64,000 nt of DNA, from the NCBI RefSeq assembly GCF_001864835.1, contig NZ_MJGI01000023.1:204539-268538 (forward strand), in the 5' to 3' direction. Origin of the DNA: Curtobacterium sp. MCBA15_001. GTDB taxonomy: Bacteria > Actinomycetota > Actinomycetes > Actinomycetales > Microbacteriaceae. Numbering within the stretch: the first letter of the stretch is position 1; each line of letters begins with the position of its first letter. A program made the position numbers and the translations under genes. Positions 5,242 through 26,367 of this stretch are shown one piece after another. Under the pieces are notes generated by a model that made no database searches, had not been told where the DNA came from, and saw only the letters and a program-made list of their open reading frames with translations.

Positions 5242-7167
5242 TCAGGCGAGCGGTAGCCAGACGCGCATCGGCGTCGCGCCGCGGTTCGCCCAGGCGTAGT
5301 ACGGGATCGCGACCGCCGACACGGGCTGGAGGAGCGGCTCGGCTCCGCCATCGACCGTCACGTCGAGGCGCCGGTACGGCCAGGCCGGCTGCGCGTGCGT
5401 CGCGGGGGCGTGCGCCGGGATCCGCAGGGTGACGACGCCGTCGAGCAGCCCGTCCTGCGGCTCCTCGGTGATCGGTGCGGTCGCGTCCACGGTCAGGTCG
5501 TCGACCGTGAAGCCGTCCTGGTCGGGCTGCTCGACCGCGTAGACGAGCGGCCCGCGCTCGATCGCGACCTGACCCCGCGCAGCGTCGATCCGGGCGTCGG
5601 CCACGAAGCGGTGCGGGGTGGTGTCGAACACGACCTCGACCGTGTCACCGGCGTGCCAGTCGCGCTCGATGGTGTGCACGGTGCCGGCGGCGGGGTGCTC
5701 GGAGCTGCCGTCGACGGTCACGGTCGTGGTGTCCGACCACGCGGGGACCCGGAGGCCGAGCGCGAGGGGGCCGTCCTGCGTCACCGTGACCCGCACCGCG
5801 CCGTCGTGCGGGTACCCGGTCTCGACGCGCACCGGGCCGAGGTCAGCCGTCGCGTACTGGTGCACCTGCAGGCCGCCGTCGGTGGCGGTGGCCAGGTAGC
5901 CGTCCAGGCTGGCGAAGGTCCGCATGATGTTCGGCGGGCAGCACGCGCAGTCGAACCAGCCGCGGCGTCCGTGCGCGGGGGAGCGGTTCTCGTCGGCGTG
6001 GGCGTGGTCGCGCTGCTGCAGCGGGTTGACGTAGAAGTACTCGGTGCCCGCCAGGCTGACACCGGGCAGGAACGCGTTGTACAGCAGGCGCTCGATCGCG
6101 TCGGCGTACTCGGGCCCGCCGGTCGCCAGCAGCAGGCGCCACGCCCACTGCACGCCGCCGATCGCGGCGCAGGTCTCGGCGTAGCCGCGGTCCGTCGGCA
6201 GCTCGTACGGATCGCCGAAGGCCTCGAAGTCCCAGCGCGCACCGAGGCCGCCCGTGATGAAGGCCTTCGTCGCCATCATGTCCGCGAACTGCCGCTCGCT
6301 CGCGGCCAGCAGTTCGCCGTCGCCCGTCTCGATCGCGACGTCGACTGCGCCGGCGGCCAGGTAGACGGCCCGGACGGCGTGGCCCTCGACGGTGGTCGCC
6401 GTGCGCGCGGGCACCCGGTCCGAGAAGTACGTCGGTTCGCCGCCGGCGCGCTCGATGATCCCGTCTCCCCGGGCGTCGACGAACCAGTGGGCGAGGTCGA
6501 GGTAGGCGCGGGTACCGGTCTCGCGGTAGAGCTCGACCAGGCCCATCTCGACGACGGGGTGGCCGTCGACGTCGCGGACCTGGTCGGGGCCGTCGCCGAA
6601 CGTCCGGACCAGGTGGTCGGCGTTCCGGACGGCCACGTCGAGCAGCGCGGAGTCGCCCGTCGCGCGGGACTGGGCCACGGCCGCCTGCATCAGGTGCCCT
6701 GCGCAGTACATCTCGTGGCTCCACTTGAGGTCCGTGTAGCGCGCTCCGTCGAACCGGACCTGCTGGACGGAGTCGACGTAGCCGTCCTCCGCCTGGGCCG
6801 ACGCGACGAGGGCCGTCACCTCGCGCTGGAGGTCGCGCAGGTCGTCGGCGGGCTCGCGGCCGAGCTCCCACGCGACGGCCTCGAGCCACTTGTACACGTC
6901 GGAGTCCATGAAGATCGGGCCGACCGCCTCACCCTGCTCGACACCCGCCGCGATCCGCAGGTTCCGGAAGTTGCCGGCGGCGTCGAGCTGCCGGTAGCCG
7001 TCACGGATCGCGTCGCGACCGTTGCGTTCCTGCCGCAGGTGCCAGAACCCGCCGGTGATGCGCGCGACGCCGGTCGGGAGCGGCCGCACCGTCAGGTGCG
7101 CACCAGCGGTCGGCAGGACCGGGGTCGCGGTGCATGCACGGCTGTCGGTCGCGAGCGTGGTCGTCAT
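5242..7167 (-). CDS. GH127-family beta-L-arabinofuranosidase, intracellular
   Basis: Predicted to release L-arabinose from beta-L-arabinofuranosides such as arabino-oligosaccharides of plant hydroxyproline-rich glycoproteins. The 641-residue protein has the (alpha/alpha)6-barrel pattern of GH127: ITGGFWHLRQERN near the N-terminus, DSDVYKWLEA, DLKWSHEMYCAGH, YAETCAAIGG and the diagnostic CACCPPNIMRTFASL. In characterised GH127 enzymes a Cys of the CCPPN-type motif and nearby Cys and Glu residues bind zinc and supply the nucleophile. There is no signal peptide, so it acts in the cytoplasm on imported substrate. ATG 7167 was chosen over the longer reading because CCTGGAG precedes it. It is divergent from a LacI gene across 206 bp holding a cre-like box. 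Confidence 0.87.
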   Translation of the reverse strand: MTTTLATDSRACTATPVLPTAGAHLTVRPLPTGVARITGGFWHLRQERNGRDAIRDGYRQLDAAGNFRNLRIAAGVEQGEAVGPIFMDSDVYKWLEAVAWELGREPADDLRDLQREVTALVASAQAEDGYVDSVQQVRFDGARYTDLKWSHEMYCAGHLMQAAVAQSRATGDSALLDVAVRNADHLVRTFGDGPDQVRDVDGHPVVEMGLVELYRETGTRAYLDLAHWFVDARGDGIIERAGGEPTYFSDRVPARTATTVEGHAVRAVYLAAGAVDVAIETGDGELLAASERQFADMMATKAFITGGLGARWDFEAFGDPYELPTDRGYAETCAAIGGVQWAWRLLLATGGPEYADAIERLLYNAFLPGVSLAGTEYFYVNPLQQRDHAHADENRSPAHGRRGWFDCACCPPNIMRTFASLDGYLATATDGGLQVHQYATADLGPVRVETGYPHDGAVRVTVTQDGPLALGLRVPAWSDTTTVTVDGSSEHPAAGTVHTIERDWHAGDTVEVVFDTTPHRFVADARIDAARGQVAIERGPLVYAVEQPDQDGFTVDDLTVDATAPITEEPQDGLLDGVVTLRIPAHAPATHAQPAWPYRRLDVTVDGGAEPLLQPVSAVAIPYYAWANRGATPMRVWLPLA

Positions 7168-20595: not shown

Positions 20596-21951
20596 TCAGA
20601 AGTACGTGATGCCGTGCGGGGTCCGCGCGGGCAGCAGCATCGCGCGCAGCCGCACCGGCACCGCCGGGTCCGACGCCCGCAGGAGCCCGGCAGCGGCGAG
20701 CGTGACCGGCGACACCGCCCCGATCAGCAGCGCGCCGAGGTCCGCCACGTCGAGCCGGACGTCGACGTCGTGGCGCTCGTCCACGTCGTGCCCGTCGTCG
20801 TCGTGCCCGTCGACGTCATCGGCCAGACGGGTGACGCTGCCGACCCCGTCGACGACGTCGAGCCGGTACGTGCCCGTGGCGAACCCCATCGCGTCGGCGA
20901 CGGCGAGCACCACGCTGCCGTCGACCGCGTACGGCCGCGAGGTCAGCGCCGCAGCGACGTCGAGCACGCGGAGCCACACGTGGTCCTCCTCGTGGTCGAC
21001 GTCGTACGCCCGGTTGTCGCCGAGCGCCGCGACGATCGGGTCGTCGAGCCGCGAGCGGTTGTACTTCACGACGTCGTTGAGGTCGATCGAGAGCAGGAAC
21101 TCCCAGAGCGACAGGTACGCCGCGTCCGTCGCGTAGACGAGGTCGAGGACCTCGACCACGGTCTCCGAGCCGGACTCCGAGACGCGCCAGGTGACGTACC
21201 CGTCGACCTCGTCCGACGCCGTTGGCCGGTGCACGGCGGCGCGGACGCCCTTCGCCTTCTCGCCGTCGCCGCCGTACTCGCCGAACACGATCGGCCAGGT
21301 GCCGGCGTTCCGGACCATGGAGCCCGGGGTGCGCTCGTGGAAGCGTGCGAAGACGTCCTTGCCGACACCGTCCGCGAGCCACGTCGTCGGGACCATGGTG
21401 ACGACGCCCGAGGTGGGTGCGACGAACGGCAGTGCGCGGTTGCGGCGCACGCGGACGGCGCGCTCACGGATGGCGCACCCGAACCCGAAGCGGCGGTAGA
21501 TCGTGCCCTCGGACGCCGTGAGGGACGCCATCGCGTAGCCCTCCTCGACGCCGCGCTCGAGCGCGTGCGTCATCATCGCGCGGAGGATGCCGCGGCGACG
21601 TTCCGTCGGTCGGACGGTGACCGCGGAGATCGCCTGGGTGTCGACGAAGGACCCGTCGCCCCAGCTGAGCGCCTTGCGGAACCAGGTGAACGTGCCGGCG
21701 GGCCAGGTCTCGTCGACGGATCCGGGCACCGGGTCCTTGACGTACGCGCCCAGGAAGGTCTCCTGGTCCGCGATGAAGTTCGCTGCCATGCGCGCCGCGA
21801 GCTCGGGGGAGGGCGACGCCTCGTGGAAGCCGAGGCCGACCGCCTCCATCCAGGGAGCGGTCTGCGTGTCTGGAGCTCCGTCGGCATCGGTGCCGGGCTG
21901 GAACTCGCGCAGGTCGAAGCGGGCGGTGAACGCGTCGTTGATCGATGCCAC
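20596..21951 (-). CDS. eis: Eis-family N-acetyltransferase
   Basis: Acetyl-CoA-dependent acetyltransferase of the Eis family, whose members acetylate lysines and several amines of aminoglycosides. The 451-residue protein has the family's three-part layout: an N-terminal GNAT domain with the acetyl-CoA loop ISAVTVRPTERRRGILRAMMTHAL (residues about 108-131), a second degenerate GNAT domain, and an SCP2-like C-terminal domain. It ends in ITYF, whose terminal carboxylate lies in the active site of characterised Eis, and keeps the Tyr-rich SEGTIYRRFGFG segment. Monocistronic-looking, downstream of the seven-helix protein on the same strand with an 87-bp gap. Actual substrates are unknown. Confidence 0.86.
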   Translation of the reverse strand: MASINDAFTARFDLREFQPGTDADGAPDTQTAPWMEAVGLGFHEASPSPELAARMAANFIADQETFLGAYVKDPVPGSVDETWPAGTFTWFRKALSWGDGSFVDTQAISAVTVRPTERRRGILRAMMTHALERGVEEGYAMASLTASEGTIYRRFGFGCAIRERAVRVRRNRALPFVAPTSGVVTMVPTTWLADGVGKDVFARFHERTPGSMVRNAGTWPIVFGEYGGDGEKAKGVRAAVHRPTASDEVDGYVTWRVSESGSETVVEVLDLVYATDAAYLSLWEFLLSIDLNDVVKYNRSRLDDPIVAALGDNRAYDVDHEEDHVWLRVLDVAAALTSRPYAVDGSVVLAVADAMGFATGTYRLDVVDGVGSVTRLADDVDGHDDDGHDVDERHDVDVRLDVADLGALLIGAVSPVTLAAAGLLRASDPAVPVRLRAMLLPARTPHGITYF

Positions 21952-22038: not shown

Positions 22039-22656
22039 TCAGAGCGCCGCTGCCACCATCCACGCGACCGCCGAGATCCCTGCCGCGCGCAGCACCGATG
22101 CCGCTGCCGGACGCCCGCGCCACGTCGCCACGAACTCGGCGACCGCTGCGACGAGCGCCGTCAGGGTGATCGCCACGACGATGCCCGGCAGGGGATGCCC
22201 CACGAGTCCCGCGCCCACCTGGTGGAACGCGATGATGCCCCACGGCACGATCCCGACCGCCGACCCGAGGCCGAGCGGAACCCGCGAACGGTCGGGGGAG
22301 CGCCGCTGGACCACCGCGAACAGCACGCCCGCGGACGCGAGCGCGTAGATGCCGACCAATGCCCCGACGTCGCGGATCCCGTTGAGCTGCGCGACGACGA
22401 ACACGGTGACCGGCGTGGTCAGGAGCGGGTCGAGCGTGCCGGACCACCGCGAGGACCACGCCCACGCCACGGCCGCCAGCGCGAGCACCACGACCATCGC
22501 CACGGCGACGTCGACCTGCGACAGCGTCGACGTCGGCTGCTCACCGAGGGTCACCGTCACCGGCCGGGTCGTGGGCGCTCCGAGCAGCGCGACAGCGAGG
22601 ACGGCCACGGCCTGCACCGCCATCAGGATGCTGATCGTCCTGCTGTGTCGGCGCAT
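22039..22656 (-). CDS. Seven-helix membrane protein, heliorhodopsin-like but lacking the retinal lysine
   Basis: The 205-residue protein has seven hydrophobic segments at about 8-27, 48-67, 77-94, 96-117, 128-149, 156-178 and 187-205. Compared from memory with heliorhodopsins, it shares an N-terminal helix starting shortly after MRR, an RW-initiated helix 3 ending in GIRDVGALV, a helix 5 reading GSAVGIVPWGIIAF, LPG before helix 6, and SAVAW in helix 7 matching the SALAW that follows the retinal lysine. At the lysine position stands Ile194, and the whole protein contains no Lys. Asp76 falls where helix 3 carries the Glu counterion. If correct it cannot bind retinal by a Schiff base. ATG 22656 was preferred to an upstream ATG because basic MRRH then precedes helix 1. 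Alternative: an unrelated seven-helix membrane protein. Confidence 0.6.
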   Translation of the reverse strand: MRRHSRTISILMAVQAVAVLAVALLGAPTTRPVTVTLGEQPTSTLSQVDVAVAMVVVLALAAVAWAWSSRWSGTLDPLLTTPVTVFVVAQLNGIRDVGALVGIYALASAGVLFAVVQRRSPDRSRVPLGLGSAVGIVPWGIIAFHQVGAGLVGHPLPGIVVAITLTALVAAVAEFVATWRGRPAAASVLRAAGISAVAWMVAAAL

Positions 22657-22712
22657 GCCCGAGAGCCTGCCACGCGGGCCGGTGTGCACCACCAGCGTCC
22701 GTTGGTCCTGGC

Positions 22713-23696
22713 TCAGCGGCGGGCGGTCAGCACCTCACTGAGTCGCCAGAGCCGCTCGGCGTCGTCGGGGTCGAGCATCGCGGAGTTGGCGTCGGCGGGG
22801 ATGCGCTGTGCGGTGAGGGGACGCACTTCGTCGTCGATCACGGCCACCTCGCTGTCCTTCAGGTAGACGCCCCCGACGCCGTCGAGGGCCGGGTGCACGG
22901 CGCCGAACACCAGGGTCGCGGCGCCCTGCTCGATCGTCTTCGTGCCGCGCTCGGGGTCGATGACCGTCGCCCCGTGCTCGTCCACGAGGCCCTGCTCCCG
23001 GTACGCCGCGACCCGATCGGGTCGGTGCGGACCCGGGCCGATCACGACACCGGGGTGCGCTGCCGTGGCTCGGATGCCCTCAGCAGCATGGCGGAGGTCG
23101 AACGCGACCGAGAAGAGTACGTTCGCCCGCTTCGACTGTGCGTACGCGGCGCCGGCGTCGTACCCGTGGGCGAAGGTGGGGTCGTTCCAACGGATCGCAC
23201 CGATGCGGGCTGCCCCGGACGTCACGGTCACCACCCGGGCTCCCCCCGCTGACCGCAGCGCCGGCAGCAGGCCCTGCGCCAGCTGGAAGTGCCCGAGGTG
23301 CGACGTCGAGAACGCCAGTTCGTTCCCGCGGGCGTCGAGCCGTCGCTCCAGGGAGAAGAGCACCGCCGCGTTGGCCACGAGCGCCTGGAGCGGCCGGCCG
23401 GAGGCGTTCCACCGTGCGGTGAACGAATCGACGGAGCCGGGGTCCGTCAGGTCGAGGTGTTCGACCTGCACGCGGGGAATCCCCGCAACGACGGCCGACG
23501 CGCGTGCGACGTCGCGGGAAGCGACGGTGACGGTCGCACCCGCCACCGCGAGCGACCGGGTGACCTCGAGGCCGAGCCGACCGTGGCCGCCGGTGACGAC
23601 GACGTGGTGGCCGGTCAGGTCGAGCCCGGCGAGGACTTCGGAGGCTGTGGTCGCGGTACGGAAACCAGATCCGACGGGGTGCTGTTGCTCGATCAC
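22713..23696 (-). CDS. Short-chain dehydrogenase/reductase
   Basis: NAD(P)-dependent oxidoreductase, 327 residues, of the retinol-dehydrogenase/WWOX-like SDR group by length. The Rossmann motif reads VVVTGGHGRLGLEV (residues about 33-46), a variant of TGxxxGxG with Arg at the middle Gly. NAAVLF matches the NNAG motif, and the catalytic Ser-Tyr-Lys appear as VTVTSGAAR and AAYAQSKRAN. The Asn-His-rich SHLGHFQLAQGLLP segment is typical. It is divergent from a VOC-family gene across 119 bp holding two strong TetR-like operators, so expression is probably ligand-controlled. Substrate unknown. Confidence 0.88.
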   Translation of the reverse strand: MIEQQHPVGSGFRTATTASEVLAGLDLTGHHVVVTGGHGRLGLEVTRSLAVAGATVTVASRDVARASAVVAGIPRVQVEHLDLTDPGSVDSFTARWNASGRPLQALVANAAVLFSLERRLDARGNELAFSTSHLGHFQLAQGLLPALRSAGGARVVTVTSGAARIGAIRWNDPTFAHGYDAGAAYAQSKRANVLFSVAFDLRHAAEGIRATAAHPGVVIGPGPHRPDRVAAYREQGLVDEHGATVIDPERGTKTIEQGAATLVFGAVHPALDGVGGVYLKDSEVAVIDDEVRPLTAQRIPADANSAMLDPDDAERLWRLSEVLTARR

Positions 23697-23726: not shown

Positions 23727-23764
23727 ACGGAATGCTGTTCCGAATATACGGAACGGCGTTCCGT
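23727..23764. promoter_or_regulatory. Two TetR-like operators between SDR and VOC genes
   Basis: CGGAATGCTGTTCCG (23728-23742) and CGGAACGGCGTTCCG (23749-23763) are 15-bp dyads of the form CGGAAN5TTCCG. Their centres are exactly 21 bp apart, two helical turns. The second is a perfect 17-bp palindrome when flanks are included (23748-23764). A further dyad, GTTCCGAATATACGGAAC, links them (23737-23754). The layout fits cooperative binding by a TetR-family repressor; no such gene adjoins. Confidence 0.75.
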
Positions 23765-23815
23765 TCTGCAAGACTGCCCTTGACCGTCGCCCCGGACACG
23801 AGGACCATCGCCGAC

Positions 23816-24214
23816 ATGAGCCTCTTCATCGCCTGTCCGGTCGAGAGCGTCGAACGCGCGACCGCCTTCTACACAGCCCTCGGCTGGACCCACAACGCGG
23901 AGATGTCGAACGACCAGGTGGCGTGCTTCGCCGTCGCGCCGGAGCAGTACGTCATGCTCAGCAGCCGCGAGATGTACGCGAGCGTCGGCGGGACCGAGGA
24001 CCTGATCGGCGGTCCGGACACCCCGTCGAAGGTCACCGTCTCCTTCGACCTCGACAGCCGCCAGGCGGTCGACGACCTGCTCGATCGGGCCGCTGCCGCT
24101 GGCGGGCGGATCGGCGACACCGACGAGTACCCGTTCATGTACCAGCGCCAGTTCGACGACCCGGACGGCTACCACTGGTCGCCGTTCTGGATGAAGCCGG
24201 AGCCGGATGCCTGA
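23816..24214 (+). CDS. VOC (glyoxalase/dioxygenase-fold) family protein
   Basis: Small metal-site-fold protein of 132 residues. Two beta-alpha-beta-beta-beta modules are visible: MSLFIACPVESVERATAFYTALGWTHNAEM and the second half ending in FDDPDGYHWSPFWM, a typical VOC terminus with the last metal-site region. The sequence resembles the extradiol-dioxygenase-like VOC group often annotated as glyoxalase of unknown substrate. ATG 23816 was selected since the earlier in-frame ATG lies in the operator region. It faces the SDR gene and shares its operators, so both may act in detoxification of the same compound. Confidence 0.85.
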   Translation: MSLFIACPVESVERATAFYTALGWTHNAEMSNDQVACFAVAPEQYVMLSSREMYASVGGTEDLIGGPDTPSKVTVSFDLDSRQAVDDLLDRAAAAGGRIGDTDEYPFMYQRQFDDPDGYHWSPFWMKPEPDA

Positions 24215-24881: not shown

Positions 24882-26367
24882 CTACGGCATCGTGCGGTGG
24901 GCCTCCTGGGCGACGACCTGCTCGCGGTCGGCCAACCCGCGCAGCTGCTGGAGCGGCCGCATCATCCGCGAGTTCCCCCGCAGCGCCGGTTCGGCACGGT
25001 CCAGGAACGCCCAGTAGCCGGCGGTGAACGGGCAGGCGTCCTCGCCGAGCCGCTTCGTCGGGTCGAACCGGCACCCGCCGCAGTGGTCGGACATCCGGTC
25101 GACGTAGCGCCCACCCGCGGCGTACGGCTTCGTCGCGACGCGGCCACCGTCGGCGTGCTGCGACATCCCGACGATGTTGGCGGGCATCACCCAGTCGGTG
25201 CCGTCGACGAACACGTCGGTGAACCACTCGGTCAGCTCGACCGGGTCGTAGCCCCGCTGCAGCGCCCAGTTGCCCAGGACCATGAGCCGCTGGATGTGGT
25301 GCGCCCAGCCGTGCTCGGCGACGGTGTCGATCGCGGTGGACAGGCAGACGGCCTCGACCTCGGAGGCGTCGAGCTCTCGCCACCAGCGCGGCAGGCGGAC
25401 CCGGGGGAGCGGCTCCGAGCGGTGCGGCGGACGCCGCGTACTCGTCGCCGAACCACCAGTAGAGGTGCCAGACGTAGTCGCGCCAGCCCGCGATCTGGCG
25501 GACGAAGCCCTCGACGCTGTGCAGGGGAGCCGACTGGTCGGCGTACGCGGAGAGCGCCGCGTCGATCGCGGTGCGCGGGTCGAGGACGCCGAGGTTCATC
25601 GGCACGCTGAGCAGCGAGTGCGCCATCGTCCAGTCGTTCGTCAGGACCGCGTCCTCGTACGGGCCGAAGTCTCCGAGACGGACCTCGACGAAGTCCGCCA
25701 GCGCGGCCTCGGCCTCGGCGGCGGTGACCGCGAAGCGCCGACGGTCGTCCTGCCCGACGAACTGCACGACACCGTCGCGCTCCCACCGGTCCAGGTCGTG
25801 GCGCACCTGGTCGTCGACATCGTCCTCGGTGGGCCACCACGGGTCGGGCAGCCCGAGCGTCGTGGCGCCCTTCGGCGGCGGCTGCCGGTTGTCGGCGTCG
25901 TGGCTGAACTGCCCGCCGACGGGGGCGTCGCGGTCCATCAGCCAGCCCTCGCGGCGACGGACCTGCTCGTAGAAGGTCTCCATCAGGAACCGGTCACCAC
26001 GCCCGGCAGCCCAGGCGCCGAACTCGTCCTCGCTCGTGACGAACCCGCGACTCGGCAGGATGCGCGTCCCGTCTCCCCAGTGTCGGACCTGCCCGCGCAG
26101 GTGTCGCGACGGCGGGTCGACGACCTCCAGGTCGTCCCGCCCGACCAGGGCGTCCCGCAGGTGATCCACCTGGACGTGCTCGGCCCGGTCGCCGAGTTCG
26201 CGCACCCGGTGTCGCAGTGCGCTCAGCCACAGGTGGGCCTTCGCCCGGTGCACGGGGCGGGCGGCGAAGAACTCGGTGGCCTCGACGACCAGGGTCGGCC
26301 CGCCGTCGTCGAAGAGCGGGCCGTACTGGCCGGGCAGGACCAGGCGGGTACGCGGGGCATCGGTCAC
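24882..26367 (-). pseudogene. phrB: FeS-type cryptochrome/photolyase (PhrB class), broken by a frameshift
   Basis: Member of the FeS bacterial cryptochrome/photolyase (CryPro, PhrB) family, which repairs UV photoproducts with FAD and a 4Fe-4S cluster. The first part from GTG 26367 reads MTDAPRTRLVLPGQYGPLF, then RILPSRGFVTSEDEFGAWA, METFYEQVRRREGWLMD and GWRDYVWHLYWWFGDEY. Beyond about base 25425 the frame changes: homology resumes one frame over with LPRWWRELDA, GWAHHIQRLMVLGNWALQRG, NIVGMSQHADGG, MSDHCGGCRFDP and EDACPFTAGYWAF, ending at 24882. The Cys residues for the cluster lie in the second part. A single extra base between about 25390 and 25425, within a C/G-rich stretch, explains the shift. 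It is either a true recent mutation or a sequencing error. Confidence 0.85.

Follow-up and report, generated by a model that had tools for sequence, protein, structure and literature searches.

A lysine-less sister branch of the heliorhodopsins in Microbacteriaceae, with an arginine accompanying the retained counterion acid

The heliorhodopsin-like gene described here lies in the 64,000-nucleotide stretch of Curtobacterium DNA that was analysed (the window; 71% GC), and is one member of HeR-noK, a lysine-less branch that is sister to the heliorhodopsins. Throughout this branch the retinal-binding lysine of helix 7 is lost, and an arginine in the Schiff-base cavity co-occurs with the acid at the counterion position. 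The one-clade status and the arginine that accompanies the retained acid both go beyond the earlier observation, which concerned a single sequence. We therefore file the window protein as a lysine-less relative, rather than as a heliorhodopsin photoreceptor, because the defining lysine is absent when the site is aligned.

Family membership, fold and retinal site

The open reading frame runs on the minus strand from an ATG at 22656 to 22039 and encodes 205 amino acids and a stop. Starting instead from a GTG at 22692 would lengthen the protein to 217 residues; the ATG is in register with four Curtobacterium orthologues (MGARSRTIS... or MGARGRTIS...). The gene and the residues that matter most are as follows:

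22039..22656, minus strand: lysine-less heliorhodopsin-like gene, 205 amino acids (open reading frame, Pfam, PDB sequence match, AlphaFold2 model, structure fit)
22075..22077, minus strand: Ile194, at the retinal-lysine position (48C12 Lys241; alignment, codon checked)
22087..22089, minus strand: Arg190, at the 48C12 Ser237 position, one turn ahead of the lost lysine (alignment, codon checked)
22429..22431, minus strand: Asp76, at the counterion position (48C12 Glu107; alignment, codon checked)
22462..22464, minus strand: Trp65, at the 48C12 His80 position (alignment, codon checked)

The window protein is almost certainly homologous to heliorhodopsins. Its match to the Pfam heliorhodopsin family PF18761 scores 40 bits (E 3.8e-10), where the cut-off is 26.7. 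A scan to E 10, whose filters drop most weak matches, returned this family alone, with no match to the type-1 rhodopsin family PF01036. Sequence comparison with the PDB gives 6uh3, 9ljj and 6su3, all of them heliorhodopsins, at E 8.5e-6 to 3e-5, over residues 78-169 (helices 3 to 6); the TaHeR entries 7clj and 6is6 appear at E 1.4-2 only.

The AlphaFold2 model (52 rows; mean pLDDT 91.5, pTM 0.86) comprises seven predicted helices, at residues 2-25, 50-66, 69-91, 97-118, 126-151, 158-179 and 183-204, and a two-stranded A-B hairpin; according to the accessible part of one source (PMC9385722), this loop is found in heliorhodopsins only. All ten PDB structures that Foldseek matches to the model at E <= 0.001 are heliorhodopsins. 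Superposition with VIA-align on heliorhodopsin crystal structures gives 1.6-1.8 A over 198-202 residues, with Z 25.0 for 7u55 and 6uh3, compared with 20.8 for the best type-1 rhodopsin. A second member, from Subtercola (L107, with arginine at position 80), is predicted with pLDDT 88.8, and its ten matches at E <= 0.001 are likewise all heliorhodopsins. The proposal of a heliorhodopsin-family seven-helix protein, made in the sequence-only reading, is thus borne out both by the profile match and by the predicted fold. The positive-inside count (10+/1- inside, 2+/3- outside) puts the N terminus inside and fits the inverted topology predicted for this protein.

The 48C12 numbering was transferred onto a Microbacteriaceae heliorhodopsin (L018) for alignment of helices 3 and 7. 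In helix 3 the alignment is gap-free, with L-D76-PLLTTPVTVFVVAQLNGIRD opposite V-E107-YSLSSSIMIWLIAQITGITD, and in helix 7 RAAGI194SAVAW lies opposite SLVAK241TALAW. These alignments place Asp76 at the counterion site and Ile194 opposite K241 at the retinal site, as had been proposed before any alignment was made. The RW pair that had been read as a family motif ahead of helix 3 fares worse: R70 and W71 are out of register with the conserved R104-W105 of 48C12, which align with G73 and T74.

The same reading had stressed that there is no lysine in any of the 205 residues. The count is correct, but we reject it as evidence in its own right, since at 71% GC six of the 50 genes that a simple gene finder calls in the window are free of lysine, the opsin-like gene included. 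Thirty-six of the 47 sequences of the clade lack lysine altogether. The telling feature lies at the aligned retinal site, where the lysine of the SxxxK motif is missing from all 47 rows.

Much of the remaining cavity is altered, so that the old signal path may fail in the window protein. His23 and His80 are replaced by Met12 and Trp65 (H23 is present in 8 of 47 lysine-less rows and H80 in 2); R104, E230 and E149 are substituted, and N16 and Y92 lie opposite gaps. The signal-path residues Q26 (as Q15) and W246 (as W199) are retained, the latter in 26 of the 47 rows. Compared with the type-3 rhodopsins 48C12 and TaHeR (PF18761), the window protein shares the fold, the predicted inverted topology, the A-B hairpin, the helix 5 GIVPW motif, an acid at 107 and the A-V-A-W of helix 7. 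It differs in the absence of Lys241, H80 and H23, in the arginine at the S237 position and in its length, 205 amino acids against 245-256 residues in the solved chains.

A single lysine-less clade

PF18761 is matched above cut-off in 9 of 66 Curtobacterium genomes, and none of the nine copies has the retinal lysine. One further Curtobacterium match (genome G004; L017, L077) scored 20.6 bits, below the cut-off, was left unconfirmed by a custom profile and was set aside. In the wider family sample of 398 genomes, 80 have a match, 77 of them above cut-off. A lysine-less copy is found in 28 of the 80, from 10 genus codes; three of the 28 score below the Pfam cut-off and were found by the custom profile and then aligned. 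Ten of the 28 genomes also hold a second copy at 308-326 bits, and the six of these that were aligned all have the lysine.

Named genomes, when scanned, gave 77 loci in total, the lysine-less ones coming from Curtobacterium, Frondihabitans, Subtercola, Frigoribacterium, Cryobacterium, Agromyces, Microbacterium, Microcella, Yonghaparkia and metagenome-assembled genomes (MAGs). The search for lysine-less relatives in Microbacteriaceae that had been suggested for the single sequence yielded 47 distinct ones, nearly all from this family and spread over about ten genera. Judged by score, the only low-scoring match among the 25 of 347 genomes that match in the order sample is the window's own, and those among the 109 of 396 in the phylum sample are fragments or pieces, one with an internal stop.

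All 47 lysine-less sequences were placed in an unrooted tree with 25 lysine-bearing ones, thinned from 72 distinct, on an alignment of 259 columns that includes the lysine column. The lysine trait changes once, the two kinds forming the two sides of one branch, which has support 100/95 and is present in 100% of 200 bootstrap trees. Three sequences were omitted from the tree and from all counts: L074, a lysine-type fragment; L110, a truncated relative from Salinibacterium; and L143 (5666-6013 and nearby; Cryobacterium breve), a relative broken over two open reading frames, with arginine at the lysine position. On a simple reading the lysine is the older state, because all 25 other rows have it. 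Most simply, its loss would have happened once and then spread through Microbacteriaceae.

Two sequences lie near the clade boundary, L119, with arginine at 241, and L122, in which the lysine is kept. The latter (5989-6756; Cryobacterium algoritolerans) is a divergent copy that may offer a view of the state before the loss; a photolyase-related (DPRP) gene lies ~3.5 kb away, and the same strain holds an ordinary copy, L165. The record of L119 is titled as an Acidobacteria MAG, a label that is likely wrong, the matching genome (G153) being in the window's family.

We found no description of a lysine-less heliorhodopsin subfamily in the literature searched, whose coverage excluded most subscription papers and all bioRxiv preprints. 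The closest parallels are the Rh-noK proteins of Guillardia and betaproteobacteria and the FArhodopsins, which have likewise lost the retinal lysine and in some genomes sit beside true rhodopsins, as far as the accessible parts of the two reports go (PMC7714340, PMC10308929). These are type-1 rhodopsins, whereas the present subfamily is heliorhodopsin-like. About 600 Rh-noK are counted among 5,558 rhodopsin genes "including HeRs", and no lysine-less heliorhodopsin subfamily is named in the accessible part of that paper (PMC7714340). According to the available text of another survey, only sequences with the helix-7 lysine were retained (PMC9601134), and under such a filter a lysine-less branch would stay hidden.

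Arginine and acid in the Schiff-base cavity

The acid at position 107 is retained in 41 of the 47 lysine-less rows (E in 29, D in 12, A in 4, G in 2), the window protein carrying Asp, an acid other than Glu. An arginine at 80, 237 or 241 is found in 40 of the 41 acid-keeping rows and in none of the six acid-less ones (L067-L069, L125, L131 and L138), a difference with a Fisher value of 6.5e-7 that is to be read with the rows being related rather than independent, and with the three positions having been picked after the rows were inspected. The sole acid-keeping row with no such arginine is L065. This co-occurrence of arginine and acid within the Schiff-base cavity of a lysine-less heliorhodopsin branch is new here.

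Position 80 is Arg in 32 of 47 rows, position 237 in 12 and position 241 in one. Asp107 goes with R237 in 12 of 12 rows, which form one clade, and Glu107 with R237 in 0 of 29; in 27 of the 29 Glu107 rows it is R80 that accompanies the acid. Among the 25 lysine-bearing rows, 24 have H80 and all have S237. As a control, we compared the columns that hold 10 to 44 arginines, and the link to the acid is strongest, by p value, for column 80 (4.7e-4). Other arginine columns are linked as well (R104, p 0.0036; one more, p 0.0069), and shared descent may therefore account for part of the association. The tree holds three independent losses of the acid, and on average the arginine changes in the same direction in 2.8 of 3 pairs, with no pair going the opposite way; with only three losses, significance is out of reach of a phylogenetic sign test (p = 0.25).

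The combination in the window protein is W65 at 80, R190 at 237 and D76 at 107. S237 is part of SxxxK, described as the counterpart of DxxxK in type-1 rhodopsins in the accessible portion of PMC11561045, and this makes a putative contact between R190 and D76 plausible on the alignment. In 48C12, where light protonates H80, simulations pass the Schiff-base proton to E107 and then to H80, and Ser237 is oriented toward the Schiff base; in the simulated M state, a charged H80-E107 salt bridge affects both sides of the membrane and sets off the conformational change (PMC9726877, as far as its available text goes).

With the lysine lost, retinal has no usual residue on which to form a Schiff base, so the protein cannot be a normal heliorhodopsin photoreceptor, and it very probably binds no retinal covalently. 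We tentatively propose that the arginine would take the place of the positively charged retinal Schiff base and pair with the acid at 107, from position 80 in most members, from 237 in the Curtobacterium branch and from 241 in one. Because the charged H80-E107 pair of 48C12 triggers the change, a permanent Arg-acid pair may, even in the dark, lock the protein in a state that resembles the signalling one. The locked protein would then act on a partner encoded nearby as a membrane regulator, either constitutively or under some other gate such as pH. Such a charge replacement, with its light-independent regulatory role, is a reading that we hold with less than even confidence. It is a doubtful though real possibility that these are natural "locked" heliorhodopsins, whose Arg-counterion pair copies the light-activated state and which signal constantly or answer to another stimulus.

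If the proposal is true, a photoreceptor has been converted to a constitutive regulator through charge replacement. The fold and, mostly, the cavity acid are kept while the retinal lysine is dropped, which suggests that the fold has a light-free job; a match to the Pfam heliorhodopsin family is not in itself a sign of light sensing. The arginine seemingly assumes the electrical role of the pigment, and the lysine-less proteins are therefore probably light-independent. For the heliorhodopsins, a family of largely unexplained function, the arginine swap offers a direct test of the signalling charge state.

Constraint, retinal supply and gene neighbourhood

The gene is under purifying selection, as measured in Curtobacterium. 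Among six genomes its dN/dS (Nei-Gojobori) is 0.24-0.43, with a median of 0.36, and the range widens to 0.21-0.55 once the window and more distant rows are added. It evolves faster than its neighbours, whose medians are 0.29 (Eis), 0.23 (DPRP) and 0.13 (ABC permease, one pair only). Thirteen columns are invariant in 34 of 34 lysine-less rows: A89, N92, G93, L100, Y104, A105, V137, P138, W139, G140, A143, T164 and L168 in window numbering. Six of them (N92, Y104, G140, A143, T164 and L168) differ or vary in 18 lysine-bearing rows. The dN/dS values and the subfamily-specific invariant columns together suggest a protein that is probably in use, with a specific task of its own.

These invariant positions suggest a newly selected core, as would be expected if the former retinal pocket now bound a carotenoid, a lipid or another apolar molecule without a covalent bond and the protein served as a chemical sensor. 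The membrane fenestration over the ionone ring in canonical heliorhodopsins, described in the accessible text of PMC9385722, points the same way. Several large residues in helices 4 and 6 have become small (F214 of L142 to Ala171, N146 to Ala or Thr), at positions that we take to line the retinal pocket, and this counts against a receptor of this kind, which we consider unlikely.

Retinal itself would be a poor candidate for such a ligand. Seven of the nine Curtobacterium carriers have no BCD dioxygenase gene, which occurs in 15 of the 66 genomes, an RPE65-type oxygenase is found in 0 of 66 genomes, and 6 of 9 carriers have neither BCD nor a type-1 rhodopsin (present in 16 of 66); other ligands are unaffected by these counts. 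Within Curtobacterium, presence of the lysine-less gene does not track retinal synthesis. The light-independent or non-covalent-ligand role suggested in the sequence-only reading stays conjectural, and gains from the carriers in which the searched retinal-making genes are missing. The window genome has a BCD dioxygenase gene and a type-1 rhodopsin gene ~1.6 kb apart, so its host can probably make retinal; helix 7 of this rhodopsin reads ADIVAK. Curtobacterium sp. Leaf261 (G068; L093, L103) has a type-1 rhodopsin and no match to BCD or RPE65, and may import retinal or use another enzyme.

The regulatory reading calls for a partner encoded nearby. Genes around the opsin-like gene in the window include:

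20596..21951, minus strand: GNAT acetyltransferase and SCP2 domain gene, downstream on the same strand, 87 bp past the opsin-like gene; nearest candidate partner
22713..23696, minus strand: short-chain dehydrogenase gene, upstream on the same strand
23732..24214, plus strand: glyoxalase-family gene, on the opposite strand; at seven other Curtobacterium loci it is the divergent neighbour of the opsin-like gene
24885..26367, minus strand: photolyase-related (DPRP) gene, split in two frames, in the neighbourhood

The first of these is presumably Eis-like, and a gene of this kind is immediately downstream in 8 of 9 Curtobacterium carriers. In seven other carriers the order is DPRP, GrpB (in three), divergent glyoxalase, opsin-like and Eis-like; DPRP is PF04244 in the one carrier scanned. 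The window has the same order, with GrpB, a split DPRP and an extra dehydrogenase, which is present only here among 12 loci searched (nine Curtobacterium and three of the Frondihabitans group). Residues 1-308 of its DPRP are in frame 26367-25438 and residues 333-502 in frame 25394-24885. In 40 other matching Curtobacterium genomes the gene is in one piece (one with an internal TGA); the split may be a real frameshift or a sequencing error.

A photolyase-superfamily gene near the opsin-like gene in 9 of 9 carriers (eight DPRP, one of them split, and one FAD_binding_7) would also suit a structural scaffold, in which the Arg-acid pair only stabilises the fold and the protein binds a photolyase, acetyltransferase or transporter with no switch. 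So would the Eis-like neighbour, and the arrangement in Leaf261 (L103), where the FAD_binding_7 gene ends right before the lysine-less gene with a gap of 0 bp. The heliorhodopsin TfHeR binds and boosts its photolyase TfPHR, as given in the accessible part of PMC9769723, and its gene too lies near a photolyase-superfamily gene. By the same account, TfHeR uses retinal and green light and shares one operon with the photolyase gene, whereas the Curtobacterium genes have lost the lysine and, in 8 of 9 carriers, the divergent glyoxalase gene separates the two, so that DPRP and the opsin-like gene are not one operon there. DPRP and Eis also occur together at loci with no opsin-like gene (30 loci from 41 DPRP-bearing genomes were compared), and of the 23 opsin-less loci among these, 18 have Eis in their flank and none has glyoxalase. 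The idea of a photolyase operon in Curtobacterium, initially the favoured account of function, is weakened accordingly. Outside Curtobacterium, two photolyase queries matched no lysine-less locus and two lysine-bearing Cryobacterium loci (L122 and L140). The neighbourhood is no more than suggestive of a link between heliorhodopsin and photolyase, and we regard a scaffold as quite improbable.

That the gene is a relic under relaxed selection and on its way out, as its patchy presence (9 of 66 Curtobacterium genomes), the broken L143 and truncated L110 and the somewhat raised dN/dS might suggest, is very improbable given a dN/dS well below 1 in Curtobacterium, the 13 invariant positions across 34 rows and 47 distinct open-frame sequences in about ten genera (selected as open reading frames, broken ones being excluded).

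Across the lysine-less subfamily, no single neighbour gene is conserved, and neighbours are clade-specific. The Microcella group context comprises a NIPA-like transporter, a glycosyltransferase, the opsin-like gene and DUF1684, and at several loci (L129, L063, L138 and related) the lysine-less gene lies between the glycosyltransferase and DUF1684 on the same strand. The Frigoribacterium context, judged by eye, is an ABC transporter. In Frondihabitans (L105:4434-5902), the lysine-less gene is immediately preceded by two GAF-ANTAR regulator genes, which gives it a signalling context.
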